Assembly (NCBI GenBank): GCA_021848465.1
Contig: JAJZUP010000002.1
Span: 1 to 64,000 of the forward strand
DNA length: 64,000 nucleotides
Direction of reading: 5' to 3'
From: Pseudomonadota bacterium
GTDB taxonomy: Bacteria; Pseudomonadota; Gammaproteobacteria; Burkholderiales; Gallionellaceae
Shown here: positions 1,251-35,272 of the stretch, one piece after another
Layout: each line of letters begins with the position of its first letter
How positions within the stretch are numbered: the first letter of the stretch is position 1
Program-made: the position numbers and the translations under genes
Notes under the pieces: model-generated
What the model was told of the DNA's origin: nothing
The model's input: the letters and a program-made list of their open reading frames with translations, nothing else
Database searches by the model: none

Positions 1251-1346
1251 TTACGCAGCGAGATGCATGAGGAAATGCCCACCCGCATACAGGGTCAGCA
1301 GGGCCAGCCAGAGGCCGGCCATTTTTTTCATCAAGCCCATGTTCAT
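1251..1346 (-). CDS. 31-aa membrane peptide overlapping the cheA stop
   Basis: The cheA stop and this start share ATGA, the typical arrangement for translational coupling. The predicted peptide MNMGLMKKMAGLWLALLTLY... has one hydrophobic helix and a short C-terminal tail. It is visible only as the tail of a longer shadow ORF in the track. Coupling to cheA favours a real gene, but 31 codons is near the limit of chance. The function is unknown; a small membrane partner of the chemoreceptor array is only a speculation. Confidence 0.4.
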   Translation of the reverse strand: MNMGLMKKMAGLWLALLTLYAGGHFLMHLAA

Positions 1347-3538
1347 TGCCCCGCCGTAATCATCTTTTGTTCGCGATTGCCGAGCTGGTGCACCAAGCGC
1401 TGCACGTCGAGGATCAGCGCGACTTCGCCGCTGCCGAGGATGGTGAAGCCGCCGATGCCACGCACGCCGCCGAATACCTTGCCGAGCGGTTTGATGACGG
1501 TCTGGAATTCGCCCATCAGTTTGTCCACGACCAGCCCGGCTTTCTGCCCGGCATATTGCACGACGACGACGTTTTCGCGGCGCGGCGGAGTACCTTCCAC
1601 TTCGAACATGTCGCGCAGGCGCAGGTAGGGCAGCACTTCGCCGCGCAGGTTGAGGTAGCCGCGCTCGGCATTGGCAGTTGCATTGCGCTCGGCGTCGCTC
1701 ATTTCGATGCATTCCAGCACCATGTCGAGCGGCACGACATAAGCGGCATTGCCGACGCCGACCAGGAAGCCGTCGATGATGGCGAGCGTGAGCGGCAGGC
1801 GGATGCGCATGGTGGCGCCCTTGCCCATTTCGGATTCGATGTCGACAGTGCCGCGCAACGCCTGGATGTTGCGGCGCACCACGTCCATGCCGACGCCGCG
1901 GCCGGACAGGTTGCTGACGGCATCGGCGGTGGAGAAGCCGGCTTCGAAGATCAGGTTGTAAATTTCGGCATCGCTGAGCTGCTGCTCGGGCTTGACCAGG
2001 CCGCGCTCGATGGCCTTGGCGAGGATCTTGTCCTTGTTGAGGCCGCCGCCGTCGTCGGATACCTCGATGACGATGCTGCCGGAATCGTGGTAAGCGTTGA
2101 GCTTGAGCGTGCCTTGCGCGGGCTTGCCGCGCGCAAGGCGTACTTCGGCGGATTCGATGCCGTGGTCCATGCTGTTGCGCACCAGGTGGGTGAGCGGGTC
2201 GCCGATTTTCTCGACCACGGTTTTGTCCAGCTCGGTTTCCGCGCCGCTGATTTCCAGGCGGATGTCCTTGCCCAGCTCCTTGCTGACGTCGCGCACCACG
2301 CGCTGGAATTTATTGAAGGTGGCGCCGATCTGCACCATGCGCAACGACAATGCGGAGTCGCGCACTTCCTCGACCATGCGCGACAGGGTGGCGGTCGACT
2401 CGATCAGGTCGGCCTGACCGGAACGCAGCGCAGCCAGGCTGGCGCCCGCGCCGGCGATGATCAGCTCGCCGACCAGGTTGATAAGCTGGTCGAGCTTGGC
2501 CGCGTCCACGCGGATCAGGCTGCTTTCGGAAGTTTTGGTTTCCTTGACCTGCTTCTGTTTTTGCAGGGCGGCCTCCACCACCGGGGCCTGTACGATGTGC
2601 TGTTCCACCAATGCCTCGCCAATTTTCACCGGTGCGCCGCTTTCCTGTTGCTGCTGGAGCATTTTCTCCAGCTCGCACTGGGTCAGCGTACCGCACAGCA
2701 CGAGGATTTCGCCGAGACGCATATCTTCTTCGGGCAGGTCCTGGATCAATGCCAGGTATTCGCCGATCTTGCTGTTGGGCGGCAGGATGCGGATCTGGCA
2801 ATCGTCGCGCACGAACTCAAACACGCCTTCGATGGTGCTCTTGTCGGCAGCCGAGTTGAATGCGATTTCAAACCCCAGGTAGCAGGTTTCCGCGTCCATT
2901 TCCTTGAGCGGCGGAATCGAGTCGATCAGGGTGACGATGTGGACAATGCGCCCGAGTGTGGCGAGATACCGGATAAAGGAGAGCGGGTCCATGCCGTTGC
3001 GCAAGACATCCTTGCCAAAGCGCAGGGATATATGCCAGTTGTCGGATTCAACTGCACTTCCGCCCTCCTTCCCGATTTTATGGTCGAGTTCAGCGGGTAC
3101 GCCCGCTTTTTTTTCCTCGCCTTTCTTGCCCTCCGTTTTCTTTTCCTTGTTGCCCAGATAGGCGCCCAGCCGCTCCATGATGGCGATGCTCAAATCGGCG
3201 CTCTCTGTGTTCGGCTCTTCACCCTTGGCGGTATGTCCCACCAGCGTGCCGATATGGTCGGCGGATTCCAGCAACAAGGCGGCAAGATCGCCGTCGATAT
3301 GCAGCTCGCCGCTGCGCACGCGATCCAGCACGCTCTCGGCCACATGAGTGAATGAGACAATGTAATCCAGACCGAACAGGCCCGCCGAGCCCTTGATGGT
3401 GTGCGCGGCACGGAAAATGTCATTGATGATGTCCGGATCGTCCGGGTCCTGCTCGATACGCAACAGCGCCGCTTCCATTTGCTCCAGCAGTTCACCGCTT
3501 TCGATGATGAAGGTCTTGAGTGCCTCGTCCAGATTCAT
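1343..3538 (-). CDS. cheA: Chemotaxis histidine kinase CheA
   Basis: A 731-aa CheA, which passes receptor signals to CheY by autophosphorylation. An N-terminal Hpt/P1 domain carries the phospho-accepting H46 (RAAHTIKGSAG). A middle region is followed by a dimerisation segment (LINLVGELIIAGAG), an ATPase domain with N-box LVRNSMDHGIE and G-box SGRGVGMDVV, and a C-terminal CheW-like domain ending near ILDVQRLVHQLG. The start is supported by AAGGGA upstream of ATG. No separate cheW, cheR or cheB is visible here. REP cluster B separates it from the STAS and cheY genes, so it may have its own promoter or be read through. Confidence 0.95.
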   Translation of the reverse strand: MNLDEALKTFIIESGELLEQMEAALLRIEQDPDDPDIINDIFRAAHTIKGSAGLFGLDYIVSFTHVAESVLDRVRSGELHIDGDLAALLLESADHIGTLVGHTAKGEEPNTESADLSIAIMERLGAYLGNKEKKTEGKKGEEKKAGVPAELDHKIGKEGGSAVESDNWHISLRFGKDVLRNGMDPLSFIRYLATLGRIVHIVTLIDSIPPLKEMDAETCYLGFEIAFNSAADKSTIEGVFEFVRDDCQIRILPPNSKIGEYLALIQDLPEEDMRLGEILVLCGTLTQCELEKMLQQQQESGAPVKIGEALVEQHIVQAPVVEAALQKQKQVKETKTSESSLIRVDAAKLDQLINLVGELIIAGAGASLAALRSGQADLIESTATLSRMVEEVRDSALSLRMVQIGATFNKFQRVVRDVSKELGKDIRLEISGAETELDKTVVEKIGDPLTHLVRNSMDHGIESAEVRLARGKPAQGTLKLNAYHDSGSIVIEVSDDGGGLNKDKILAKAIERGLVKPEQQLSDAEIYNLIFEAGFSTADAVSNLSGRGVGMDVVRRNIQALRGTVDIESEMGKGATMRIRLPLTLAIIDGFLVGVGNAAYVVPLDMVLECIEMSDAERNATANAERGYLNLRGEVLPYLRLRDMFEVEGTPPRRENVVVVQYAGQKAGLVVDKLMGEFQTVIKPLGKVFGGVRGIGGFTILGSGEVALILDVQRLVHQLGNREQKMITAGQ

Positions 3539-3606: not shown

Positions 3607-3809
3607 CTGTAGGAGCGAATTTATTCGCGAATGCGCCCTGCGCTTCCCACCAAACCTTCGCGGTTGAAACCGCTCCCACAAAACCACCGCACCCTGTGGG
3701 AGCGAATTTATTCGCGAATGCGCACTGTGCATCTCACTAGCCTTCGCGGTTAAAACCGCTCCTACAAAATCACCGCACCCGTGGGAGCGGCTTCAGCCGC
3801 GAATGCGCC
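3607..3809. repeat. REP palindrome cluster B (about 5 units)
   Basis: Five alternating units: GTGGGAGCGAATTTATTCGC or GTGGGAGCGGCTTCAGCCGC followed by GAATGCGC, and CTTCGCGGTTGAAACCGCTC in reverse. Two units have an AATTTATT core instead of GGCTTTAGCC, so the loop varies while the stem ends are kept. The cluster fills the gap between the STAS gene and cheA. Confidence 0.85.
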
Positions 3810-3818
3810 TTGCGCCAT

Positions 3819-4133
3819 TCAGTCGTTCTGGTGCAGCACAACCTGGTCGCCAAAGAAGCTGCCGAGGTCGCACAGGTCGATGATGTCGAGCACGGCCTTG
3901 CTGTGGCCGACATAGCGCAAGGTCTTGCTGCGCAGGATCGCCTCCAGCTTGGCGGCGACCATGAGCTGCACGCCGGCGGCATCAATCTCGGTCACGCGCG
4001 ACAAATCGATTTCGATTTCTTCGTGTTCCGCCACGGCGGGAATGATCTGTTCGCGCAGGTTGCTCACTGCGTAAATCGTCATCTCGCCCTCAATCGGGAA
4101 ATACACAACCCCGGCAGTTCCATTGCGTCCCAT
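3819..4133 (-). CDS. STAS-domain protein, phosphosite missing
   Basis: A 104-aa single STAS domain, the fold of anti-sigma-factor antagonists such as SpoIIAA. The core motif is intact around IDLSRVTEIDAAGVQLM, but the position normally held by Ser/Thr (D-S/T-x-G) is D51-A52-A53-G54, so phosphorylation control of the SpoIIAA type looks impossible. It lies just downstream of cheY with an AGGA site before the start. STAS proteins often accompany chemotaxis genes and probably act by protein contact, for example with a receptor or kinase. The partner is not visible. Confidence 0.85.
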   Translation of the reverse strand: MGRNGTAGVVYFPIEGEMTIYAVSNLREQIIPAVAEHEEIEIDLSRVTEIDAAGVQLMVAAKLEAILRSKTLRYVGHSKAVLDIIDLCDLGSFFGDQVVLHQND

Positions 4134-4171: not shown

Positions 4172-4540
4172 TCAGGGCAATACCAGCTTAGATACGGCCG
4201 TCAGCATCTGCGCCGGCTGGAATGGCTTGACCACCCATGCCTTGGCGCCGGCGGCCTGACCTGCCTGCTTCTTGTCCTCACCCGCTTCGGTAGTCAGCAT
4301 GATGACCGGCGTGAATTTGTATTCCGCCTTTTTCTTGGCCTCGGTGACGAAAGTGATGCCATCCATGTTGGGCATGTTCACATCGCTGATGATCAGGTGG
4401 ATCTTCTGACCGTTCAGCTTGCCCAGTGCATCCTTGCCGTCACATGCTTCGATGATGTCGTAGCCCGCGCCCTTGAGTGCGATGCTCACCACTTGGCGCA
4501 GGGATGCCGAGTCGTCTACTACGAGGATAGTTTTTGCCAT
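4172..4540 (-). CDS. cheY: CheY-type single-domain response regulator
   Basis: A 122-aa stand-alone receiver. The acidic pair is in ILVVDDS, the phospho-acceptor is D53 (ISDVNMPNMDG), the switch Thr is in MLTTEA and the conserved Lys in VVKPFQP. It has no output domain, as expected for CheY, which binds the flagellar switch or acts as a phosphate sink. A strong AGGAGG overlaps the stop of the upstream MCP gene, so the two are co-transcribed and probably made in matched amounts. Confidence 0.93.
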   Translation of the reverse strand: MAKTILVVDDSASLRQVVSIALKGAGYDIIEACDGKDALGKLNGQKIHLIISDVNMPNMDGITFVTEAKKKAEYKFTPVIMLTTEAGEDKKQAGQAAGAKAWVVKPFQPAQMLTAVSKLVLP

Positions 4541-4552
4541 TTCATTTGCCTC

Positions 4553-5818
4553 CTAAAAAAACGTGATTTCAGATTCCTGTTGCTGCTTTTTCTGCTCCGC
4601 CAGGCCGCCGCTATAGGTATCGCCGTTGTGCACCTTGAATTGCTCGGGCATGGTGTAAGTCTGGGAAAGCTCGCCCAGCCAGGAGTGCGCGTCGATCGGC
4701 GATACCGCTCGCCCTGCGGCCAAGTCTTTTTCGCTTTCATCAAGATGTTTTTCGAGCTTGGTCAAGTCGTCACGCACGTGACTCAATATCTGGCTGACGC
4801 GGTCCTGAAATTGCAGCGACACCAGCACGTCGCTGATTTCTTCGCCGATGACCTGCCCCTCCTTGCGCAACACGTCGGCGGACTGTTCCAGCCCGGTGGC
4901 GGCCTGCTCGAATTGATGCAGCACGCTGGCGATCACCTCGGCGGAATTGCTGACCATGACGGCATCCTGGCGGGAGAACTCTTCCGAGGCATGCAGTGTG
5001 GAGGCGATCGCGTTGTTGACGGTCTCGACGGTCGTCGCGATTTTCTTGCCACTTTCCGCCGATAGCGTGGAGAGCTTGCGCACTTCATCGGCCACCACGG
5101 CGAATCCGCGCCCGACCTCGCCGGCGCGCGCCGCTTCAATCGCCGCGTTCAGGGCCAGCAGGTTGGTCTGTCCGGCGATCTTGCTGACATCGGCGGCCAT
5201 GCCTTTCAACGAATCCGTCAGGCTGGCCAGTTCCTGCACCTCATGCAGCAAAGTCTGCTTGCCCGCAAGCGCGGTGCGCATCGATTCGACCACGCCATCC
5301 AGTTCCTGGTGGCAGCGTTTCAGCAAGTCAACCAGTTCCGGTTGTTGCGCGGTTCCGCTGCCATGCGACAAGTTAAGCGCCTTTTCCAGTCCTTGCGACA
5401 AAGTTGCAAAACGGTTCGCAAGGCTGATCGTGGATTCTTCGGTATGCAGGCGCGCCATGTCGATCTGGCGATACCAGACCGGCAACACTTCAGTACACAG
5501 GTCATCCAGCCCGCTGATACACCCGTTTTTCTTGCTGCACAGGCTACCGGACAGCCTGGCCTGCTCCTCCTGCACGGCGGTTTGCACGGCGGCCCTGTGG
5601 CGAGATGAAATCCAGGGAACGGCAAACAATGCCGCCAGTAACGGCACTGCCGCCAGCAACACTGAGGTGATTTCCAGCGCGCCTGAGGCCAGTACCGCCG
5701 CGCTGCCGACTGCGGCAACCAGCCATACCGGCACCGCAATCCATCCGATCAAGGCAACACCGGAAAGGCTTTCCTTCATGCCAGCGTCAGACATTTCTTC
5801 CTGTAGGGTAAAACTCAT
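4553..5818 (-). CDS. Methyl-accepting chemotaxis protein with two N-terminal helices
   Basis: A 421-aa chemoreceptor. Two closely spaced membrane helices (about residues 20-70) leave almost no periplasmic domain, so sensing is probably cytoplasmic or through a partner. A Cys-containing segment ([15 protein letters not shown]) precedes the long signalling coiled coil, whose tip reads [20 protein letters not shown]. The C-terminal tail ends ESEITFF, away from the tip. The start has GGAG 7 bases upstream. It heads the MCP-cheY-STAS unit and is preceded by a GTAGGGA/TCCTAC dyad shared with other promoters in this locus, which suggests control by the NarL-type regulator. Confidence 0.92.
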
Positions 5819-5877
5819 CTCGCGACTCCATCACTTTTCGAGTGGGCCTATGGTCGCAAAGACGCGCAAGAAAAACA

Positions 5878-5934
5878 GTCAGGAAATCTTGATTTTTTTG
5901 TAGTCAAATTACACGGGGGTAGGGAGATTCCTAC
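5878..5934 (-). promoter_or_regulatory. Upstream element of the MCP gene: TCAGGAAATCTTG box plus GTAGG dyad
   Basis: TCAGGAAATCTTG is followed by a T-run and GTAG, then the dyad GTAGGGAGATTCCTAC (5919-5934). The same 13-base box and related GTAGGGA half-sites recur upstream of the pseudokinase gene, and a stronger version lies upstream of the TonB receptor. The half-site resembles the TTTCCTA heptamer bound by BvgA-type regulators, so binding by the local NarL/BvgA-type regulator is a reasonable inference. Confidence 0.5.
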
Positions 5935-6092: not shown

Positions 6093-8123
6093 TCAATCTG
6101 CCTCCGCAGGACGGAAGCTCACCTCAATCACGGAGTGGTGTTCGAGTTCGCTGAAGATGCGCATTTCGCCGCCATGCGCACGGATGCGCTCCTGCATCAC
6201 CATCAGGCTTGGGGGAATTTGGCTGAAAAAATCTCCGGGGAGGATGTGCCCGTCATAGCGAATACCCAGCACGCAGTTGCGCCCGTCACTCTTCCAGCTC
6301 ATCAGTACCCGGCTCATCCCAACCACCTTGGCGGCATGATCGAGCACTTCTTCCGCCGCGCGGAATACCAGCAGCGCGACCTGGTCATCCAGCGGCATGC
6401 CGGTTTCGCTCACCTGGAGCTGGCAGGAAATTTCCGGCTGCTTGTTGTATTCCATGACCAGCCACTCCAGCGCAGGCGCAATGCCAAGCTGCAATGCGGT
6501 CGGGCGCAACTCGGAAACCAGCTCGCGTATCACCTTCAATGACTTGTCGATCAGTTCGCCCATCTCCAGGCTGAGTTCGCGCAAAGCGGAATTCTCCCTG
6601 GGAAATTGCATGCGCATCCCGTACAGGTGCATTTTCTGCGCTGCCATCAACTGGGCAAGTTCCTCGTTCATCTCCCAGGCGATGCGCTTGCTCGTCTCCT
6701 CGCGCTTGTTTTCGCGTATCAGCACCGCCTCGCGTAATCTTTGCTGCATCTCCTGCAGTTTCTGTTCCACAATTTTTGTCGCCGTGATGTCCTGCACCGT
6801 GCCGGACGATGCCAGGGGTTTTCCCTCTGCGTCGAAGGTTGTCTCGCAACGCTCGCGCACATGCTTGATGTTTCCTCCCGGCAGCAGCAGGCGATGCTCG
6901 ATGCTGTAGGGCGTACGGGTTTCCAGCGAGTGCCGGTAGGCTTGGTCGACGGCGGCGCGATCCTCCGGATGGATTGCCTCAAGGAAGGCCGCATACGAGG
7001 CGCCGAATTGGTTCCGGTCGATTTCAAAAATCCGGAAGATTTCATCCGACCAGCTCAGCGTACCCGTCACATGATCCAGGTCCCAGCTCCCCATCTGGCC
7101 GATGCGTTGCGCCTCTTCAAGGCGCGCATGGCTTTGCATCAGGGCTGCCTCCACACGTTTTCGCTCGCCGATGTCATGCATGAAGCCATGCCATAACACG
7201 CCGCCATCCGCCCCCGACTGTGGCAACGCGCGCGCTTCCAGCCAGATGCGGCCCTTGGACGGATGCTGCACCCTGAATTCAACATGCAGCGGCGCAAGCC
7301 TGGCGGCGGACTGCGCCATCGCGTCGAAAAACAACTTGAGGTCTTCCGGGTGAATGCACAGGTTGAGTTTCGAAATATCTCCGGCCACATCTTCCGGTTG
7401 CAACCCGAACAAATCCCGGATACCGGCGCTAGCGAACGGCATCGCGTTGCTGCCGTCGGCACCGTGGCGATAGGTAAAGAAAAAGCCCGGTGCGCTGGCC
7501 GCAAATCCGGAAAAGCGCTCTTCCAGCCTGCTGCGTTCCAGCAACTCGCGCTCGTACAAGGCGCGCGCCGTCATGTCCCGCGCAAAACACAGCACATGCG
7601 TGATGCCGCCATCGTCCGCCATCGGAACCAGGCTGATCGCGAACAGGCAATCTTCTGCACCGCCGCTGCAATAAAGCTCAGCCTCGTAATGCACCTGCAT
7701 GCCGGACTGCACCGCTTTGCGCAAATGCTCATCCAGGTGCAGCAACACCAGTTGCATGCGCGGCGTATTGATGCGACGCGCCACCTCATCGAACGGCACC
7801 CCGGCCAAACCCATTCGATCCGGATCGAATGCCTGCTCGGCGGCCGGATTCAGGCTCTCGAAACGAAAGGTCTTGTCGCGCCCGACCTCCACGACGAACA
7901 CCGCATCCGAGGCGTTTTCGAAAATTTCATGATAACGGCGGTTGGCGCGCTCATCCTGAATATCCGTCTCAAGCTGCGCCAGCCTGCGTGACGCATGCCG
8001 GAAATACAGCGTCGTGCTGAACAGCAAGACGATCATAACGATGAGCAGGAAATAAACCATGAGTTGGCCGCCAGGCACACCAATGCATATTAAATGGGCG
8101 CGCACTTTGCCTGACTTGCCCAT
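6093..8123 (-). CDS. PAS sensor protein with degenerate NarL-type histidine kinase core
   Basis: 676 aa with one membrane helix at about 22-42, three PAS domains (about 62-455), then a HisKA_3-like helical region and an ATPase-like domain. The H-box reads RIAWEMNEELAQL where an active kinase has RIARE-x-HDELGQ, so the phospho-acceptor His is Asn486. The N-box (VFRAAEEVLDHA) and G-box (IRYDGHILPGDF) are also eroded. It is therefore probably a pseudokinase that senses or regulates through heterodimers. Its PAS3 closely resembles the PAS domains of the 1705-aa kinase. ATG at 8060 (MVYFLLIVMIV) is an alternative start; neither has a clear ribosome site. Confidence 0.85.
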   Translation of the reverse strand: MGKSGKVRAHLICIGVPGGQLMVYFLLIVMIVLLFSTTLYFRHASRRLAQLETDIQDERANRRYHEIFENASDAVFVVEVGRDKTFRFESLNPAAEQAFDPDRMGLAGVPFDEVARRINTPRMQLVLLHLDEHLRKAVQSGMQVHYEAELYCSGGAEDCLFAISLVPMADDGGITHVLCFARDMTARALYERELLERSRLEERFSGFAASAPGFFFTYRHGADGSNAMPFASAGIRDLFGLQPEDVAGDISKLNLCIHPEDLKLFFDAMAQSAARLAPLHVEFRVQHPSKGRIWLEARALPQSGADGGVLWHGFMHDIGERKRVEAALMQSHARLEEAQRIGQMGSWDLDHVTGTLSWSDEIFRIFEIDRNQFGASYAAFLEAIHPEDRAAVDQAYRHSLETRTPYSIEHRLLLPGGNIKHVRERCETTFDAEGKPLASSGTVQDITATKIVEQKLQEMQQRLREAVLIRENKREETSKRIAWEMNEELAQLMAAQKMHLYGMRMQFPRENSALRELSLEMGELIDKSLKVIRELVSELRPTALQLGIAPALEWLVMEYNKQPEISCQLQVSETGMPLDDQVALLVFRAAEEVLDHAAKVVGMSRVLMSWKSDGRNCVLGIRYDGHILPGDFFSQIPPSLMVMQERIRAHGGEMRIFSELEHHSVIEVSFRPAEAD

Positions 8124-8132
8124 GCGACGCTA

Positions 8133-8188
8133 TCAGGAAATCTTGTTTTTTTTGTAGGGAAAACTCACCGGGGTAGGAAAAGTCTGAC
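8133..8188 (-). promoter_or_regulatory. Upstream element of the pseudokinase gene: TCAGGAAATCTTG box plus two GTAGG half-sites
   Basis: The TCAGGAAATCTTG box at 8133-8145 is identical to the one at 5879. After a T-run come GTAGGGAAAACTCACC (8154-8169) and GTAGGAAAAGTCTGAC (8173-8188), two direct half-sites 19 bases apart. It lies just before the gene start and probably binds the same regulator as the MCP and TonB receptor elements. Confidence 0.5.
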
Positions 8189-8192
8189 CCCA

Positions 8193-8657
8193 AGTGGGAG
8201 CGAGTTTACTTAGGAATGCTCGCTGCGCTCACTACAGCCCTTCGCGGTTGAAACCGCTCCTACGCAAACCAGCCACCCCCTGTGGGAGCGGCTTTGATGA
8301 AACTACTAGCCAATCCACTGATGAAGCAACTGGCCATCTCACTAAGCCGCAGAAAACGCGGCAAGTGATTGGTCATAAGCACGATACGACTGTGCAAGTG
8401 GCTGGTTACAGCCGCGAATGCGCATTGTGCATCCCAAACCCTTCGCGGTTGAAACCGCTCCCACGAAAACCTGCGCGCCCTGTGGGAGCGGCTTTAGCCG
8501 CGAATGCGCACTGTGCATCCCGAACCTTCGCGGTTGAAACCGCTCCCACGCAAACCAGCTTCCCTGTTGGAGCGGCTTCAGCCGCGAATGCGCATTGTGC
8601 ATCCCAAACCCTTCGCGGTTGGAGCCGCTCCTACGCAATCCAGCCGCTCCTACAAAA
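8193..8657. repeat. REP palindrome cluster D, with one enlarged unit
   Basis: About eight alternating REP units fill most of the 561-base gap between the response regulator and the pseudokinase. The unit at 8281-8425 is interrupted: GGAGCGGCTTTGATG runs into about 110 bases of unrelated sequence before closing with AGCCGCGAATGCGC. Its ends share ACTACTAGCCAATCCACT and GTGCAAGTGGCTGGTTA with a similar enlarged unit at 35114-35200. The spacing is irregular and no cas gene is present, so this is not a CRISPR. Confidence 0.85.
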
Positions 8658-8684: not shown

Positions 8685-9317
8685 TCACTCAATCAGGTTG
8701 TAGTCGGCCGCATAGCGGATCAGCTCCGCGTTGCTCTGGAAATTCATTTTCTGCATCAGCCTGGCCTTGTGGGTGCTGACGGTCTTGTTGCTGATGAACA
8801 ATTCTTCGGCGATTTCGTTGATGCCCAACCCCTTGGCAAACAGCTTCAGGATGTGCATCTCCCGCTCTGACAGGCGTTCATGGGGTGCCGCTTCATTCTG
8901 GCTCGGCTTTTCGAACATCATCAGTTCGGCAATCGAGGGGTCGATATAGCGCCCGCCAGCCGACACCTTGCGAACCGCATCCATCAGCACATCCTGCATG
9001 CTGCCCTTGGTGACAAAGCCGGAAGCGCCGGCTTGCAGCACGCGCTTGGCGATCTGCAACTCGTTATGCATGCTGAGCACAAGGATGGGCAACTCCGGGT
9101 TCTGCTCGCTTATCTGCCCGATCAGGCCGACCCCGCTGACCCCCGGCATGGTCAGGTCGATCAGGATCAGGTCGTATTTATCCTTGCGCAGCTTCTCCAT
9201 TGCCTCTGCGCCATTGACCGCCTCGCCCGCCACAACGATATCGCCCATCAGCTCAAACAGCTGCTTCAGGCCATTACGCACGATCACATGGTCGTCTGCA
9301 ATCAAAACTCTAATCAT
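8685..9317 (-). CDS. NarL/BvgA-type response regulator
   Basis: A 210-aa transcription regulator. The N-terminal receiver has IADDH and phospho-acceptor D54 (LILIDLTMPGVSG). The C-terminal LuxR-type helix-turn-helix reads LSEREMHILKLFAKGL...ISNKTVSTHKARLM. The start overlaps the stop of the upstream kinase gene by 4 bases (ATGA), so it is the output of the receptor-kinase operon. Regulators of this subfamily (BvgA, UvrY, EvgA) bind paired heptamers like TTTCCTA, which match the GTAGGGAAA/TTTCCCTAC elements upstream of three transcription units here. Target control is inferred. Confidence 0.93.
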   Translation of the reverse strand: MIRVLIADDHVIVRNGLKQLFELMGDIVVAGEAVNGAEAMEKLRKDKYDLILIDLTMPGVSGVGLIGQISEQNPELPILVLSMHNELQIAKRVLQAGASGFVTKGSMQDVLMDAVRKVSAGGRYIDPSIAELMMFEKPSQNEAAPHERLSEREMHILKLFAKGLGINEIAEELFISNKTVSTHKARLMQKMNFQSNAELIRYAADYNLIE

Positions 9318-12300
9318 GATTTCACCTTTCCATTGTTCGCCGGAATGCGCACTTCGACTTCAGTGCCTTTCCCGCGTTTGCTCGTAATTCCGACATGCCC
9401 GCCCAGCATCAGCGCACGTTCCTGTATCCCGACAAGCCCGTACGACCCGGTTTTCCGGGCCTGGGCATCGAACCCCTTGCCGTTATCCTTCACCTTGAGC
9501 ACATACTCGCTGCCCCACATCCCAAAGCTGATATTGACGCGCGTCGCCTGCGCGTGGCGCGACACGTTGGTCAGCGACTCCTGCACAATGCGGAACAAGG
9601 CAATGGCCTGCTTTTCGTCCAGACTGATTTCGTCCTCCGCCAGATCCAGCTTGCACAGGATGCCGGTATTCGCTCCGAAGCGCCCGGCCAGCCACTCCAG
9701 CGCGGACTGGATACCCATGTCCAGCGCGGCTGGGCGCAGCGACGAGGCCACGTTGCGCGCCACGGCCAGCGCCTGGTCGGTCAGTCCCTTGGTATCTTTC
9801 AGGTGCGTCTTGAGTTCTGGAAGTCCGGGGGAAAACTTATGATCCAGTACTGACACACTCAATTGCAGTCCGGTCAATATCTGGCCCAGTTCATCATGCA
9901 CTTCGCGGGCAATATGTTTGCGCTCTTCTTCACGTGCGGCTTCACGACTCGCGCTCAGCCCGCGCAGCAACTCGCGCGACTCCTGCAGGTCCTGCTCAGT
10001 TTGCTTGAGAACCGTAATGTCACGCGAAATTCCGATCAGGCGGCTGACCCGCTCACCGTGGTAAATCGGTGTCATGGTCGAGTAGTAATAGCGCTTGCCG
10101 AGCGGCACATCCAGCGCAATCTCCTCTGTAAGCGTTTCCCCGGAAGCAGCGCAACGCCGGTATTTATCGATCACCGCCGCCGCGACTTCGGGAGGCACCG
10201 TCTCCTCGACATATTTCCCGATCAGTTGCTCGCGCGGAATGCCGGTGGAGGCAGCCAGCGCCGGATTGATCTCGATGTTGCGGAAGCGCCCGTCCGGCGT
10301 CACCTCCAGCAGGTACATGCCCTCGACCGCATTGTCGAAGATTTCGCGGTAACGCTGCTCGCTTTCCTGCAGGGCGCTTTCAGCCTGCTTGCGTTCGGAA
10401 ATATCCCGCACAGTCGTCAGGTGCAGCGTTTCGCCCTCATAAGTGAATGCGGTCGCGCCCACCTCAACGGGGAATATCTCACCATTCTTGCGCCGGTGGC
10501 TCGATTCGATGGTTCTATGAGCATCACCGCCTGCCACCGTCTGTTTCATCACTTCCTGCATGATTTCGCGCGTGAGATTGTGGTCAATGTCCAATACGGT
10601 CATCGCCAACAGTTCCTCGCGGCTGTATCCCAGCTCCCGCACGGCAGCTTCGTTGACATAGCGGAAGCGCAAGTCTTCGTCGATGAGGTAGGCGGCATCG
10701 AAAGAGTTATCCATCGCGCGGTTGAGCAAATGCAGCTCACGCTCGGCGCGCTTGCGCTCGGTGATGTCGCGTACCATGGCGAGATTGAAAGCTCTCCCGC
10801 CATAATTCATGTGGGAGATATTGATCTCCACCGGAATGATGCAGCCATCCTTGTGTCGGTGCTCGGCTTCGATGGTAACCGCCCCAGCCTCGCTTATCGC
10901 GCGCCAGCTTTCCGCCATCACCTCGGGCGTCCAGCCCGGCGCGATGTCCATGACGGTCATGCCGAGCAGTTCTTCCCGGCTATAGCCGAGCATGCGGCTG
11001 GCTTCTTCGTTGACATAGAAAAAACCACCGTATTCATCGACGAAATACGCGGCTTCGTGCGCATGATCGATAGCGGCCCCCAGCATGGCGAGTTGCAGCT
11101 CGGCCTGTTTGCGCTCGGTAATATCCATGAGTGAAACCAGCACCCTGGACCACGGTTTCCCGCTATCCGGCGCGATCGAGAAATGCACCGCGACATGTCG
11201 CGGCTCGCCCGTCAGGGTCTGCACCACAGCATCAAGCTTCATCTCTGTTTTGCCACGCCACAGGCCAATCAGTTCCTCGCGAAAAGCCCGGAATGAGTCC
11301 GGCGTGAAGGTTTGCTTCAAGCCCGCGAACAATTCCTCCTTGCTGTGTGCCTGGTGCAATGCTACAGCGGCCTGATTAACATCGACGACACGCGCCAGCT
11401 CGGCGCAATGCCCGACAGCGTCGGGATGTGCGTCGAACCAGGCTTCAATATCCTCAATGCCGGATTTCTGCAACTCATCAAAATAAACCCGTACCGCCGA
11501 GAAATCCTCTTCCCAGATGGACACCGGCGAGTTCTCGAACAACTGGCGGTAACGCTGTTCGCGCTCCCGGATCGCGGCATCGACAAGCTTCTGTTGGGTG
11601 ATATCGCGGCCGATGGCCAGCGCCCCGATGACATTTCCCGCTTCGTCGCGCTCAGCAACGAAGCGGATATGATGGTAGCGAATGGCATCACCAACACCCG
11701 GAATGACCAGCTCCATTTCTCCCGGCCGCCCTGTCTCTATGGTCCGCTGCAACATGGCCTGATAATCGAAATACATATCTCCCGGTGCGATTTCCATTGG
11801 AGTCATGTCGATCCGCTCCGCCAGTGTTTTGCCGAGGATCTTCAGCAGGCTGGAATTCATGTAGATAATTCGACACTGTTTGTCGTAGCGGGCAATGTTG
11901 TCCGGCAAGTTTTCCGCCAGCGTGCGGAATTCGCGTTCGCGTGCAGCCAGCTCCGCCGTGCGTTCTGCCACGCGGCGCTCCAGCTCCTCGTTATGTTCCG
12001 CCAGTTTTTTTTGTGCCGCACTCAATTTCAGATGGGTGTCCACCCGCGCCATGATTTCGTCGATCTGCAACGGCTTGGTGACATAGTCGACCGCACCGGC
12101 GCGGAAACCTTCCACCTTTTGCTCGGGCATGGCCAGCGCTGTCATGAAAATCACCGGAATGTCGCGTGTGCTGTCCTGAATTTTCAACCTGCGGCAAGTT
12201 TCGAAGCCGTCAATGCCGGGCATCATCACATCGAGCAGGATCAGGTCCGGTTGCAGCAATTGCGCGCGCCGCATACCTTCCTCGCCGTCCTGCGCGATGG

Positions 12301-12403
12301 ATACGCGATAACCGCGATCTTCGAACAGGCTTACCACCACGGCCAGGTTGCTCGGGGTGTCGTCCACGATCAGGATGGTGGAAAGTGCATTCACTGGCCT
12401 CAT
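9314..12403 (-). CDS. Receiver-multi-PAS NarL-type sensor histidine kinase
   Basis: 1029 aa. An N-terminal receiver (residues 1-125, phospho-acceptor D58 in LILLDVMMPGIDG) is followed by a coiled linker, about five PAS/PAC domains (about 165-800), a HisKA_3 dimerisation domain with intact H-box HIAREVHDELGQ (H836), and an ATPase domain with G-box VKDNGKGFD. It has no membrane helix. The likely flow is phosphate or signal input at the N-terminal receiver from the upstream HisKA kinase, then output to the adjacent NarL-type regulator. It overlaps both neighbours by 4 bases. The PAS ligands are unknown. Confidence 0.92.
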   Translation of the reverse strand: MRPVNALSTILIVDDTPSNLAVVVSLFEDRGYRVSIAQDGEEGMRRAQLLQPDLILLDVMMPGIDGFETCRRLKIQDSTRDIPVIFMTALAMPEQKVEGFRAGAVDYVTKPLQIDEIMARVDTHLKLSAAQKKLAEHNEELERRVAERTAELAAREREFRTLAENLPDNIARYDKQCRIIYMNSSLLKILGKTLAERIDMTPMEIAPGDMYFDYQAMLQRTIETGRPGEMELVIPGVGDAIRYHHIRFVAERDEAGNVIGALAIGRDITQQKLVDAAIREREQRYRQLFENSPVSIWEEDFSAVRVYFDELQKSGIEDIEAWFDAHPDAVGHCAELARVVDVNQAAVALHQAHSKEELFAGLKQTFTPDSFRAFREELIGLWRGKTEMKLDAVVQTLTGEPRHVAVHFSIAPDSGKPWSRVLVSLMDITERKQAELQLAMLGAAIDHAHEAAYFVDEYGGFFYVNEEASRMLGYSREELLGMTVMDIAPGWTPEVMAESWRAISEAGAVTIEAEHRHKDGCIIPVEINISHMNYGGRAFNLAMVRDITERKRAERELHLLNRAMDNSFDAAYLIDEDLRFRYVNEAAVRELGYSREELLAMTVLDIDHNLTREIMQEVMKQTVAGGDAHRTIESSHRRKNGEIFPVEVGATAFTYEGETLHLTTVRDISERKQAESALQESEQRYREIFDNAVEGMYLLEVTPDGRFRNIEINPALAASTGIPREQLIGKYVEETVPPEVAAAVIDKYRRCAASGETLTEEIALDVPLGKRYYYSTMTPIYHGERVSRLIGISRDITVLKQTEQDLQESRELLRGLSASREAAREEERKHIAREVHDELGQILTGLQLSVSVLDHKFSPGLPELKTHLKDTKGLTDQALAVARNVASSLRPAALDMGIQSALEWLAGRFGANTGILCKLDLAEDEISLDEKQAIALFRIVQESLTNVSRHAQATRVNISFGMWGSEYVLKVKDNGKGFDAQARKTGSYGLVGIQERALMLGGHVGITSKRGKGTEVEVRIPANNGKVKS

Positions 12404-15400
12404 GGGAGGAACCCTTCAACAAAATTGAGAATAGCCTGGGACTGGAACTCGCTGGCAAGGCGCTTCAGGTGTTCCGCGAACGGTTGGTAGCGCGCATCGA
12501 GTGCAGCAATATGCCCGGCCTGCTGCACAATGTCGCGCATGTTCCCGAGCAGCGCCAAACGGTGCAGCTCCCGAATTTCGGCCAACGGCGGCGCGGTCAT
12601 TTGAGCCGGGGCTGCGACAGCCCCTTCCGCTACGCCCTGCGGAATATCGGCGACGGAAACGGGCAATAAGTCCGCCTCGATATTCGCCGCAGGCAGTTCC
12701 AGTTCAAAACGGAAGGTGCTGCCGTCGCCGGGGCGGCTTTCAACTGCAATGTCGCCTCCCATCAAGCGCACCAATCGCCGGCTGATCGTCAAACCCAGGC
12801 CGGTGCCGCCGCTCTTTCCCCTGGCCTCGCCCACCTGCTCGAACGACTGGAAAATCTTCTCGCGGTCAGCCGCGGCGATTCCAACCCCGGTGTCGGACAC
12901 GCTGAACGCCAGCCGGGTTGGCGACTTGCGCTCGACTGCAAAAACCACTTTGCCTTGCTCGGTAAACTTGACTGCATTGGACAACAGGTTCAGCAGCACC
13001 TGGCGCAGCCGGCGCTCGTCACCACGCACGCCATCCGGCAAATCCTGTGCAAATTCGCAGACAAGATCGAGATTCTTTTGCCGGGCCTTGACGCCGATGA
13101 TCCCGGCAACACTGTTCAGGAGGCGGAGCAATGGTAAATCGCCGATATACAATTCCAGCCTGCCGGACTCGATGCGCGCCAGGTCGAGAATGTCTTCAAT
13201 CAGCGCCAGCAGGTGCTCGCCGCTCTGGCGGATCACTTCCATGCTGGCAAATTGCCGGCTATCGAGCTTGCCATCGCGTTCCAGCATCTGGGCATAACCG
13301 AGAATGCCGTTCAACGGCGTGCGCAACTCATGACTCATATGGGCGATGAATTCGCTGCGCATATCCGCCAGGCGCTGCGCCTCGACCAGCGCCGCCTCGC
13401 GCGCCTGCTCGTATTGCTTGCGCGCGGAGATGTCGCGGATCACTCCCACCAGCATCTGTTTGCCGTCCGAGGCGACAAACGGGGTCTTCTTGGTCTGGAT
13501 GTGGTGCGTCACGCCGTCTGACGAAGTGATTGTCTCCTCGTTCAGGTTCACTTCGCCGGAACCGAACACGAGTTCGTCCTTCGCCCAGAATTCGTCGGCC
13601 TCGTTCTTCGGAAAAATCTCGTAGTCCGACTTGCCGAGCAGCGTTCCGCGCGGATGGCCAATGAAGGAATAAAACGCGTTGTTCAGCAGCATCCAGCGAT
13701 GTAGCCTGTCTTTGACGAAGATCGGGTCGGGTACCGCGTCGATCACGCTGTCGAGGAAGTTGCGCGAATCCTCGAGTTGCGCCTCCATGCGCTTGCGCTG
13801 GGAAATATCGCGCGACAGCACCAGGAAGGTTCCGCTGGCCTTCTGCGAAACGGAAAGTTCGAACCAGTTCGTTTCCTGCCGATCGAGTGCGATGGTCTTG
13901 CCGAACGACACCCCTGTCTGACCGGCCTCGCGCAAGGCCTCCAGCACCGTGGCCGCCGCCGTGGGAGCGAGTATCTCGCTCACGGTGCGGCCCAGCAACA
14001 CATCCTTCTGCGCTGCCAGCAATTCCGGCGTATGCGTCCAGACATTCAGGTAGCGGCCGTCACTATCCATCTCGAACAGGATGTCTGGAATCGCATTGAT
14101 GACACCTTCGGTGAACTCCAGCGCCTCCTTCAGTTTCAGCTCGACTTCCTTGCGCTCGGTGGTATTCAGCACGAAGATCGTCATGCCGATCACTTCGCCG
14201 TGATCGCCATAGATCGGCGCACCGAAATTGTCGTGGTATTCGCGCACCGGTTTGCCATCTTCGATGCGCTCTTCCGTAGATTCCAGGTAGCCGTGGTTAC
14301 CCGCCAGCACATGATCCGCGCCTTGCCTGAAGAGTTGACGGTGCGCCTCAGTATCGATCGCATCGAGCACGCTCATGCCCGGCTCGATTTCCGCATTCCA
14401 AAGCCGTTTGGCCGCTTTCCTGAAGCGATTGTTGAAAGCCAGCAGGCGATAGTCGCGGTCGATCGCATAGATTGAAACGCTGTCGGACGGGCTCTCGATG
14501 ATGGTTTGCAGCAGGTTGTAGTTGTAACGGTAGCGCGCTTCGCTTTCCTTCAGCGCATCTTCCATGCGCTTGCGCTCGGTAATGTCGTGCACATAGCCGT
14601 ACCAGACCACCCCGCCTTCTGGATGCGGGTGCGGATTGGTATTCCCTTCCATCCAGCGCTCACCCTTGAGCGGATGAATAATGCGGTATTCGCAATGCCA
14701 CGGAGTCATCGTGCGCGCCGATTCTGCGATGCTGTCCATCACCCGCTGCGCATCGTCCGGATGATTTAGCCGCAACAGCGGGGTTGCATCCTCAACAACC
14801 TCTTCCGGTCGAACCCCGAACTGTTCGTAGATGTTCGGTGAAACATAGGGCATGCACACTGTGCCGTCGGGCTTCTGGTAAAAGCTGCCCACCATGCCGG
14901 GCGAGGATTCCGCGAGCGCGCGCAACTCGCGTTCGCGCTCGCCGAGTGCCTCTTCCAACAGCTTGCGTTCCGTGATGTCGCGCGACAACGCGAGAAAGGT
15001 TGCGTCACCCGGCTCATTCCCTGATTTCCTGGACAATGTGTGGGCAAACCAGCGCTGACCGCCCGGCACATCAATCAGGATGTCCTTGCCTTGCGCATAT
15101 CCCTTCTCGTCAGCCTCTCGGATAGCCTCCATAGCTGCAGCGGCATTCTCCGGGGAAAGCACCTCATGAACGGTCTTGCCCAGAAGCGACTCCCTCTGTG
15201 CCGCCAACAAATCGGGATTTTGTGTCCATACGTTCAGGTAGCGACCCTCGCGACTCATCTCGAGCAGGACATCCGGAATGGCATTGATGACACCCTCGCT
15301 GAATTCCAGCGCCTCCTTCAACCGCTGCTCTGCCAGCACGCGCTCGGTTATATCCTGCATCATGCCTACAGCACGCAGCAGGACGCCTTCCGGACTGCAT

Positions 15401-17517
15401 ACGATTTCGCAGCGCTCATGTACATACTTGACCCGACCGTCCGGCATCAGCAGGCGGTGCGTACTTTCATAGGGGCGTCCCGTTTCGACAGAATCGAGAT
15501 AAGCTTGCGCAATCGCGTCTCGATCCTTGGGATGGGTGGCATTCATGCACCCCTCGTAGGATGCGCCATCCTTCATCGGATCGATCTCGTAAATGCGGAA
15601 CAGCTCGTCAGACCAGACATGCACGTCGTTGACGATGTCGTATTCCCAACTGCCGACCAGGGCGATGCGTTGCGCTTCAGCCATCAACTGGCGGCTCTCT
15701 CGCAGCGCGTTTTCCATTTCCTTGCGATCGCTGATGTCCTGCACTGTTCCGATGGAACGCAGCGGTTTTCCGACAGCGTCATAGATCGTTTCGCAGCGCT
15801 CGTGAACGAACTTGATCCGGCCTCCGGGCAGCAGCAGGCGATGTTCGAGTTCAAAGGGCCGGTGCTGCGCCAGCGATGTCTTGTAGGCGGTATCGAGCAA
15901 CTGGCGGTCATCCGGATGCACGGTCTCCATGAACGCTTCATAGGAGGCGCCGAACTCGCTACGCTTGATCTCGAAAATACGGTAGATTTCGTCCGACCAG
16001 GTAAGGACGTTATCGACCAGATTGTTTTCCCAACTGCCGACATGGGCGATGCGTTGCGCTTCGTTCAACGACTCGCGGCTCTGTTGCAATTCCTCGGTGC
16101 GTTCCTGCACGCGCTGCTCCAGCCCGATATTCAATTGGCGGATTTCCTCGCTGGAGCGGCGCAGACGCAACACGAAATACGCCGTCAGCATCAGCAATGC
16201 CAGAGTCGCCCCGAGCACGGTCCACAACTGCTTCTGACGCGCCTTCTGGCGTTCGCTGGACAAGGTCAGCGCGTCAATCTGTCGTTGTTTGCTATCACGC
16301 TGGAAGCGCTCGGACAAGTCATGGATGCGCTTGCCGGCCTTTTCACTCTCCAGTTTATCGTTAAGCCGCGCCGCTTCAGCGGAATAACGATAGGCCAAGC
16401 GGTATTGACCTTCCGCCGCAGCCAGATCCGCCAGGCGCCGCGCGCTGCCGGCCTGATAGACCGTAAAACCGATCTTTTGCGCAAACTCGTTGGCGCGTTC
16501 GGCATCCTTGCGCGCCGCCCCCATGTGTCCCATCGTTTGGAGCAGGTAACTGCGCTTGGTCAGCGACCACCACAGGCCGATCGGGTTGTTGTGCTTTTCA
16601 TACAGCGCGACATCCTCATCCAGCAAGACCTGGGCCGTACGCAACTGGTTGGCATTCATGTAACGGTCTGCAAGAGTAAAGACCGCGTGCGCCACATACA
16701 AGGGTGCCCCCGCCTGGCGGAACAGTGCCAATGACTGTTCGGTGATGCGGATGGCCTCGACATGATTTTTTTTGCTGACGCTGAATTCAGCCATGCCCAA
16801 AACGGCGGCGGCTTCCAACAGTCTGGAATGTGCCTGGCGCGCCGCTTCCTGCATGCTCCGGTAATGCTCGTACGACAGCTCAAACAGCCCGCTCTGTGAA
16901 TAGGCGACCGCCATGCCCTGCTCGGCATAAGCCCGGGCCAGCGGACTATCGTTGCGTTTCGCTATGTCCAGGGACTGCATCGCGATTGTGGCCGCTTCGT
17001 CCTGATGACCGAAGCGCAAATACATCATGGCGACATGGAACATAACCTCGGCGCGCAAATCCTCGCGCTGGACGCTTTCCAGCAGGTTCATCGCGTCTTC
17101 CACCGCCGCCCGCATGTCATCAAGACGCCCCTGGTTGATGGCGCTGGAAGACACCACCAGGTCGGCCTCGATCTGGCCGACCGGGTCGTTATCCTGCTTG
17201 GCCAGCAGGTGGGCCGTGGCGCTATGCTGCGCAGATTCTTCGATCAAGCCCAGGTAAAGCTCGATGCGCGCACGTAAATTGAACATCCGCGCCTGGTCGT
17301 TGCCGGTGACCTCAACCGGGGCTTCGACTTGCAGGCGCCGCACTTCGCGGTACGCGGCCGGCGCATCGTTTTCGGCGAGCTCGCGTACCTCTGCAACCTG
17401 CGCGCGCCATGTCTCCAGTCTGCCCGCTTGCGCCGCCGACGGACACCATAAAACACAAGCCAGCATGAGGCCCGGCAGGATGCCACGGTGGAAGCGGGAG
17501 TACGGTATTGGCATCAT
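12400..17517 (-). CDS. Giant sensor kinase: signal peptide, TPR, membrane helix, seven PAS, HisKA
   Basis: 1705 aa. A signal peptide ends near SAAQA (residue 31) and is followed by a TPR-rich helical periplasmic domain (about 40-420), one membrane helix (about 433-451), seven PAS/PAC domains (about 485-1370), HisKA with H1396 (FIAHMSHELRTPLNG) and an ATPase domain (GGTGLGLTISRRLVRLMGG). It has no receiver of its own; the next gene starts with one. PAS3 and PAS6 are recent duplicates (LKEALEFxEGVINAIPD in both), as are PAS1 and PAS2. The gene begins 3 bases after the TonB receptor stop with no clear ribosome site, so it is translationally coupled. The TPR part may sense the receptor or a periplasmic ligand. 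Confidence 0.92.
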   Translation of the reverse strand: MMPIPYSRFHRGILPGLMLACVLWCPSAAQAGRLETWRAQVAEVRELAENDAPAAYREVRRLQVEAPVEVTGNDQARMFNLRARIELYLGLIEESAQHSATAHLLAKQDNDPVGQIEADLVVSSSAINQGRLDDMRAAVEDAMNLLESVQREDLRAEVMFHVAMMYLRFGHQDEAATIAMQSLDIAKRNDSPLARAYAEQGMAVAYSQSGLFELSYEHYRSMQEAARQAHSRLLEAAAVLGMAEFSVSKKNHVEAIRITEQSLALFRQAGAPLYVAHAVFTLADRYMNANQLRTAQVLLDEDVALYEKHNNPIGLWWSLTKRSYLLQTMGHMGAARKDAERANEFAQKIGFTVYQAGSARRLADLAAAEGQYRLAYRYSAEAARLNDKLESEKAGKRIHDLSERFQRDSKQRQIDALTLSSERQKARQKQLWTVLGATLALLMLTAYFVLRLRRSSEEIRQLNIGLEQRVQERTEELQQSRESLNEAQRIAHVGSWENNLVDNVLTWSDEIYRIFEIKRSEFGASYEAFMETVHPDDRQLLDTAYKTSLAQHRPFELEHRLLLPGGRIKFVHERCETIYDAVGKPLRSIGTVQDISDRKEMENALRESRQLMAEAQRIALVGSWEYDIVNDVHVWSDELFRIYEIDPMKDGASYEGCMNATHPKDRDAIAQAYLDSVETGRPYESTHRLLMPDGRVKYVHERCEIVCSPEGVLLRAVGMMQDITERVLAEQRLKEALEFSEGVINAIPDVLLEMSREGRYLNVWTQNPDLLAAQRESLLGKTVHEVLSPENAAAAMEAIREADEKGYAQGKDILIDVPGGQRWFAHTLSRKSGNEPGDATFLALSRDITERKLLEEALGERERELRALAESSPGMVGSFYQKPDGTVCMPYVSPNIYEQFGVRPEEVVEDATPLLRLNHPDDAQRVMDSIAESARTMTPWHCEYRIIHPLKGERWMEGNTNPHPHPEGGVVWYGYVHDITERKRMEDALKESEARYRYNYNLLQTIIESPSDSVSIYAIDRDYRLLAFNNRFRKAAKRLWNAEIEPGMSVLDAIDTEAHRQLFRQGADHVLAGNHGYLESTEERIEDGKPVREYHDNFGAPIYGDHGEVIGMTIFVLNTTERKEVELKLKEALEFTEGVINAIPDILFEMDSDGRYLNVWTHTPELLAAQKDVLLGRTVSEILAPTAAATVLEALREAGQTGVSFGKTIALDRQETNWFELSVSQKASGTFLVLSRDISQRKRMEAQLEDSRNFLDSVIDAVPDPIFVKDRLHRWMLLNNAFYSFIGHPRGTLLGKSDYEIFPKNEADEFWAKDELVFGSGEVNLNEETITSSDGVTHHIQTKKTPFVASDGKQMLVGVIRDISARKQYEQAREAALVEAQRLADMRSEFIAHMSHELRTPLNGILGYAQMLERDGKLDSRQFASMEVIRQSGEHLLALIEDILDLARIESGRLELYIGDLPLLRLLNSVAGIIGVKARQKNLDLVCEFAQDLPDGVRGDERRLRQVLLNLLSNAVKFTEQGKVVFAVERKSPTRLAFSVSDTGVGIAAADREKIFQSFEQVGEARGKSGGTGLGLTISRRLVRLMGGDIAVESRPGDGSTFRFELELPAANIEADLLPVSVADIPQGVAEGAVAAPAQMTAPPLAEIRELHRLALLGNMRDIVQQAGHIAALDARYQPFAEHLKRLASEFQSQAILNFVEGFLP

Positions 17518-35045: not shown

Positions 35046-35272
35046 TGTAGGAGCGGCCTATGCATTCCAAACCCCATCGCGGCCAAGGCCGCTCCTACGA
35101 AACCCGCCACACCCCGTGGGAGCGGCTTTGATGAAACTACTAGCCAATCCACTAAGCACGATAAAGCCGTGCAAGTGGCTGGTTATAGCCGCGAATGCAC
35201 ACCATGCCACCCACTACCCTTCGCAGTTGAAGCCGCGCCTACAGCTTTTCGAGAAACCGCTCCTGCGCACAA
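35046..35272. repeat. REP palindrome cluster E, with one enlarged unit
   Basis: REP units like those at 1-8.7 kb fill most of the 355-base gap between the transpeptidase and tadA genes. The unit at 35114-35200 is enlarged: GTGGGAGCGGCTTTGATG is followed by about 55 bases, then TATAGCCGCGAATGC. The flanks ACTACTAGCCAATCCACT and GTGCAAGTGGCTGGTTA match the enlarged unit in cluster D. Other units are worn (GCAGTTGAAGCCGCGCCTAC). Confidence 0.8.

Follow-up and report, generated by a model that had tools for sequence, protein, structure and literature searches.

The gene between a NarL/LuxR-type response regulator (RR) and a chemoreceptor-like MCP protein in Gallionellaceae encodes a sensor kinase homologue, here termed HK2, that has lost conserved ATP-binding residues in nearly all of its orthologues and has kept an acidic-xxx-Gln motif of the phosphatase type in every one of them. 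We propose, at somewhat less than an even chance, that HK2 is a PAS-controlled, kinase-dead HisKA_3 sensor that dephosphorylates the adjacent RR as a one-way off-switch, with the neighboring HK1 acting as the kinase. The gene was studied in a window of 64,000 nt from a Gallionellaceae metagenome-assembled genome of 2.43 Mb (G000), and its orthologues were collected from nine related genomes of iron bacteria.

HK2 (6093..8123) is read on the minus strand from 8123 to 6093, as are all other features of the locus given below, and comprises 676 amino acids from Met1. Since Met1 lies only ~10 nt below a promoter-like element, translation may alternatively start at Met22 (8060). The hydrophobic N-terminal segment MVYFLLIVMIVLLFSTTLYF (8004..8060) is likely a single transmembrane helix, and similar segments are present in the HK2s of G088 and G049. 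Three PAS domains follow, as had been claimed from the sequence alone: residues 68–188 (7560..7922, Pfam PAS_4), about 201–331 (7131..7523, with PAS_9 at 230–319) and 356–442 (6798..7058, PAS_3); regions similar to the second domain occur elsewhere in the same genome. The HisKA_3 DHp domain (residues 479–544, 6492..6689) scores 28.9 bits in Pfam against a curated cut-off of 24, compared with 47.1 bits for HK1. This places the protein with the NarX/DesK-type kinases, so that the label “NarL-type” previously given to it was wrong, NarL being a class of regulators. The H-box reads RIAWEMNEELAQ, compared with HIAREVHDELGQ in the 1029-aa HK1, and the phospho-acceptor position is indeed occupied by an asparagine (Asn486, codon AAC at 6668-6666). 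It is followed by Glu487-x-x-x-Gln491 (6651..6665), the acidic-xxx-Gln motif, whose function is assigned from the literature. The degenerate CA (ATP-binding) domain (6114..6446) gives no HATPase_c match in Pfam, while HK1 reaches 46.8 bits. Here, the N-box Asn is changed to His, the G1 Asp to Tyr and the second G1 Gly to Ile, and both G2 glycines and the GxGT residues are gone, at sites that are invariant or nearly so in 45 comparison kinases. The erosion of the N- and G-boxes suspected in the sequence-only reading is therefore real.

HK2 is part of a locus with the conserved order HK1 – RR – HK2 – MCP – CheY – STAS – CheA in Gallionellaceae. HK1 (9314..12403), a REC-PAS-HisKA_3-HATPase_c protein with all boxes intact, is the proposed phosphodonor of the RR (8685..9317; Response_reg and GerE in Pfam), the proposed substrate. 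Beyond HK2 lie genes for an MCP-signal protein (4553..5818, Pfam MCPsignal) and, by domain search, a CheY-like receiver (4172..4540), a STAS-domain protein (3819..4133) and a CheA with Hpt, dimerization, HATPase_c and CheW domains (1343..3538). HK1-RR-HK2-MCP synteny is found in nine genomes, in which HK2 stands between RR and MCP (G000, G029, G043, G086, G094, G096, G049, G015 and G053); in G088, HK2 also precedes MCP and the RR is located on a separate contig. HK2 is always found 5′ of an MCP gene, mostly with the CheA cluster beyond. The genes after HK2 vary in G029 (MCP, CheW-like, CheB-like) and in G088 (two MCP-GGDEF proteins). The sister loci of G008, G064 and G040 lack HK2 and carry an MCP-type gene directly after the RR, indicating that HK2 is optional.

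Including G000, we identified HK2 in ten genomes. A search of 100 genomes of the family with the whole protein gave a single relative at 1e-80 because the PAS domains dominate, and a search with the DHp-CA part only returned ordinary kinases. The first two relatives, from the uncultured Gallionellaceae A2_bin-1030 (G029) and Sideroxydans DeMMO3_12 (G088), show the same odd Ala-Trp-x-Met ahead of the acceptor but keep the histidine. Scanning GTDB genome contigs for the pattern AW[EK]M[NH]EE recovered only these two, the remainder being PAS matches, and two profile matches (G394 and G028) were rejected as canonical kinases. The other seven HK2s were reached only via the RR orthologue and the promoter element described below. 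HK2 reading frames as a whole range from about 362 to 676 aa, at odds with the conserved length supposed earlier.

All ten HK2s were placed in a single alignment with 15 HK1 and 30 other HisKA_3 kinases. The acceptor histidine is present in nine of the ten HK2s and in 45/45 comparison kinases. All nine orthologues thus have His, and the asparagine is private to G000, an outcome that the sequence-only reading had itself named as refuting; Asn as a conserved feature finds no support. The residue following the acceptor (H+1) is Glu in 10/10 HK2s versus Asp in 45/45 comparison kinases, whereas the Gln at H+5 occurs in every HK2, in 15/15 HK1s and in 22/30 of the other kinases; the remaining eight carry Gly or Ser, so that this Gln is not universal outside HK2. 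The ATP-binding sites fail in nine HK2s, and only that of G043 keeps every residue. Six HK2s have lost the N-box Glu and the second G2 Gly: these are six of the seven non-W-type proteins, which carry Ser, Ile or His instead of the Glu and an altered G2 GxxG. The three W-type proteins (G000, G029 and G088) have lost the G1 Asp, the second G1 Gly and the first G2 Gly; the second G2 Gly is gone from seven HK2s, G000 among them. HATPase_c scores follow this pattern, with 55 bits for G043, 38–45 for the six others of its subclade, about 13 for G029, and no match in G088 and G000. Judged from the aligned residues, loss of ATP-binding residues is a trait common to the clade that arose via different lesions in its two subclades, and Asn486 is a private, late step in the genome in which decay is furthest along, affecting the histidine itself.

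In a phylogenetic tree, all HK2s lie on the same side of a branch with support values of 91/92 that is present in 94% of bootstrap trees, and they fall into two groups, the W-type trio and the remaining seven. The HK1s from the two sets of genomes likewise form separate groups, a pattern that inheritance of the whole locus as a unit would produce. A single origin of HK2 is favored by this tree, in which branch support is moderate and branches are long; the alternative, a local origin of the W-type trio from HK1s of their own, stays above the 5% rejection level (p-AU 0.078). The HK2 of G000 has the longest branch of the clade (1.39–1.69 changes per site).

An AlphaFold model of the C-terminal 230 residues, built with five sequences (pLDDT 79.7, pTM 0.62), shows a hairpin for DHp together with a CA domain folded as an alpha/beta sandwich, the lid of which is uncertain. 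Foldseek matched it to the CA domains of DesK (3ehg, target TM 0.81) and VraS (4gt8, 0.77) and, among others, to DivL (4q20) and RetS (7n0e, 6dk8). The CA fold therefore appears to be retained without the catalytic chemistry, with the reservation that the underlying alignment is shallow and includes intact kinases, which may bias the model toward a kept fold. By this prediction HK2 combines a kinase fold with the absence of catalytic residues, a feature of pseudo-histidine kinases such as DivL and ChrS_fs. Codon-position GC (0.64/0.40/0.73) matches that of the neighboring genes, also in the CA part, and no stop or frameshift interrupts the 676 codons. By comparison, shuffling the C-terminal 226 codons introduced 5–9 stops on average and left only 0.04–0.2% of sequences stop-free. 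Both features argue for, without proving, continued selection on HK2. Together with the lost ATP-binding boxes and the predicted fold, they support the suggestion made at the outset of a selected non-catalytic sensor.

A promoter-like element precedes both HK2 (CCTAC...CCTACAAAAAAAACAAGATTTCCTGATA, 8132..8185) and the MCP gene (GTAGGAATCTCCCTAC...GACTACAAAAAAATCAAGATTTCCTGAC, 5877..5934). It has the layout GTAGGGAAATCCCTAC – about 16 nt – CCTACA – AAATCAAGATT[G/T]CCTGATA and is found, with at most five mismatches in a 19-nt core, upstream of 19/20 HK2 and MCP genes; only 12 of 3000 shuffled windows match equally well. Further sites in G000 are located at C4:1453, C7:897921, C8:101410, C4:217270 and C4:149339. 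The element marks a few sensor genes here and in relatives (HK2, MCP and candidates of 628 and 759 aa) as well as a paralogous NarL-type regulator and a protein that, judged by eye, is FIST-like. Single hits with one mismatch in G019, G419 and G047 were set aside as probably due to chance. The RR orthologue is enriched in element-bearing genomes (p = 6.5e-6 with relatedness ignored; 6 of 9 among 13 of 158). The link between regulator and element is thus one of co-occurrence, and the RR may bind the element.

How could a protein of this kind act on the RR? In HisKA_3 proteins, the phosphatase reaction uses the H+5 Gln and the acidic H+1 residue, and the His is dispensable (PMC5231405, PMC3510030); the DxxxQ motif of NarX is described as required for its phosphatase activity (PMC3510030). 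HK2 retains the Gln throughout, together with an acidic residue that is Glu instead of Asp. We therefore suggest the following scheme. HK1 would phosphorylate the NarL-type RR. HK2, having presumably lost autokinase activity while the DHp helix and the motif remain, would strip the phosphate from the RR via acidic-xxx-Gln, and its PAS domains would gate this off-switch. Because HK2 and MCP have one promoter element in common and the regulator gene co-occurs with it, a negative feedback is possible in which the RR drives expression of HK2 and is in turn dephosphorylated by it. Several observations count against a phosphatase. The Asp-to-Glu exchange at H+1 affects all HK2s; in DesK, the H+1 Asp is reported to pair with Arg84 of DesR, and by inspection the equivalent stretch of the RR (LSMHNE) contains no Arg. 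The phospho-accepting His is kept in nine HK2s and would be needless for a pure phosphatase, and the apparently fully intact HK2 of G043 implies that the family did not begin as one. Moreover, HisKA_3-type phosphatase activity can depend on the CA domain: a CA frameshift of Corynebacterium glutamicum ChrS appears to be phosphatase-negative (PMC9491836). The evolutionary version of the proposal, that a duplicated HisKA_3 kinase, settled between a regulator and a chemotaxis cluster and sharing its element with the chemoreceptor, lost its kinase half through different lesions in each subclade and became a dedicated PAS-gated RR phosphatase, with intact, partly decayed and fully decayed (His to Asn) stages surviving in relatives, seems to us possible, with perhaps a third of the weight on its side.

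HK2 could instead heterodimerize with the intact HK1 via the HisKA_3 bundle and add PAS inputs, leaving all catalysis to HK1. The genes are adjacent and of the same DHp class, the DHp domain of HK2 is still recognizable, and in C. glutamicum the native kinases ChrS and HrrS interact by BACTH and HrrS phosphorylates ChrA, as PMC9491836 reports. The His of nine HK2s could even take phosphate from the CA domain of the partner; Asn486 cannot, so that trans-phosphorylation is not the role in G000. In addition, the DHp-CA parts of HK2 and HK1 are markedly different (about 30% identity), and pure allostery has no need of the kept Gln and carboxylate. We regard heterodimerization as unlikely, at perhaps one chance in four, and the conserved residues fit action on the neighboring RR better than the regulation of the neighboring kinase that had been considered at first. 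Yet another reading has the DHp domain bind the phosphorylated RR and inform a different output, such as the adjacent MCP/CheA pathway, in the way the output domain of the DivL pseudokinase is described to have become a sensor of regulator phosphorylation (PMC4211667). DivL is among the structural matches and an MCP gene always follows HK2, but the similarity is that of a generic fold, and the retention of the H+5 Gln would have no reason. This we consider improbable.

Equally improbable, in our estimate, is that the HK2 of G000 is simply a decaying gene heading for loss, with a functionless C-terminal half. Its long branch, the losses at several boxes and the dispensability of HK2 in the sister loci would all fit, but the uninterrupted frame, the normal codon-position GC and the retention of both the promoter element and acidic-xxx-Gln would not. 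As to the asparagine itself, CAC to AAC is a change of one base in a metagenome-assembled genome, and a conspecific genome for comparison was not found; still, a sequencing or assembly error is very improbable, given the independent N, G1, G2 and GxGT lesions in the same domain. Due to these lesions and the G1 loss shared with two orthologues, the kinase-dead reading does not depend on the Asn486 codon.

Compared with known systems, HK2 resembles the NarX, NarQ and DesK sensors (HisKA_3, HPK7) in its DHp family, the acidic-xxx-Gln past the acceptor and the adjacent NarL-type regulator, and it differs from them by the missing His and usable ATP-binding boxes and by Glu for Asp at H+1. RetS of Pseudomonas aeruginosa, one of the structure matches, is comparable as a sensor that targets a different kinase system and is not itself a simple kinase, but it is a HisKA-type hybrid. 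DivL of Caulobacter belongs to a kinase class other than HisKA_3. It is, according to PMC4211667, a natural, PAS-bearing pseudo-histidine kinase without phospho-His in which the fold is kept, and it acts on CckA/DivK, unlike HK2 with its proposed RR target. The C. glutamicum variant ChrS_CA-fs (PMC9491836) is described as likewise kinase-dead by loss of CA in a cell with an active paralogue, but it is a laboratory-evolved frameshift that keeps the His, whereas HK2 represents natural, residue-by-residue decay over a clade. Few pseudo-histidine kinases are known. In the syntenic series, the HK2 of G043 is intact, six genomes have lost N-box and G2 residues, G029 and G088 have lost those of G1, and in G000 the loss is complete and Asn has taken the place of His; such a series would allow one to ask in which order kinase functions decay and whether selection keeps the phosphatase. 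As the same gene position provides active-looking and dead versions beside the same class of regulator, these are clean test proteins, and the series illustrates the decay of a sensor kinase toward a protein that may serve solely as an off-switch.

Directly upstream of HK1, the window contains a gene for a 1705-aa multi-PAS HisKA-type kinase with a TPR-like N-terminal part (12400-17517); no other PAS domains of this genome are as close to the HK2 ones as those of this kinase (57% identity). REP-like repeats of the GGAGCGG...AACCGCGAA type occupy intergenic gaps at 8240-8640, 1050-1190, 3660-3800, 6060 and 35119-35254, among them the gap between RR and HK2.
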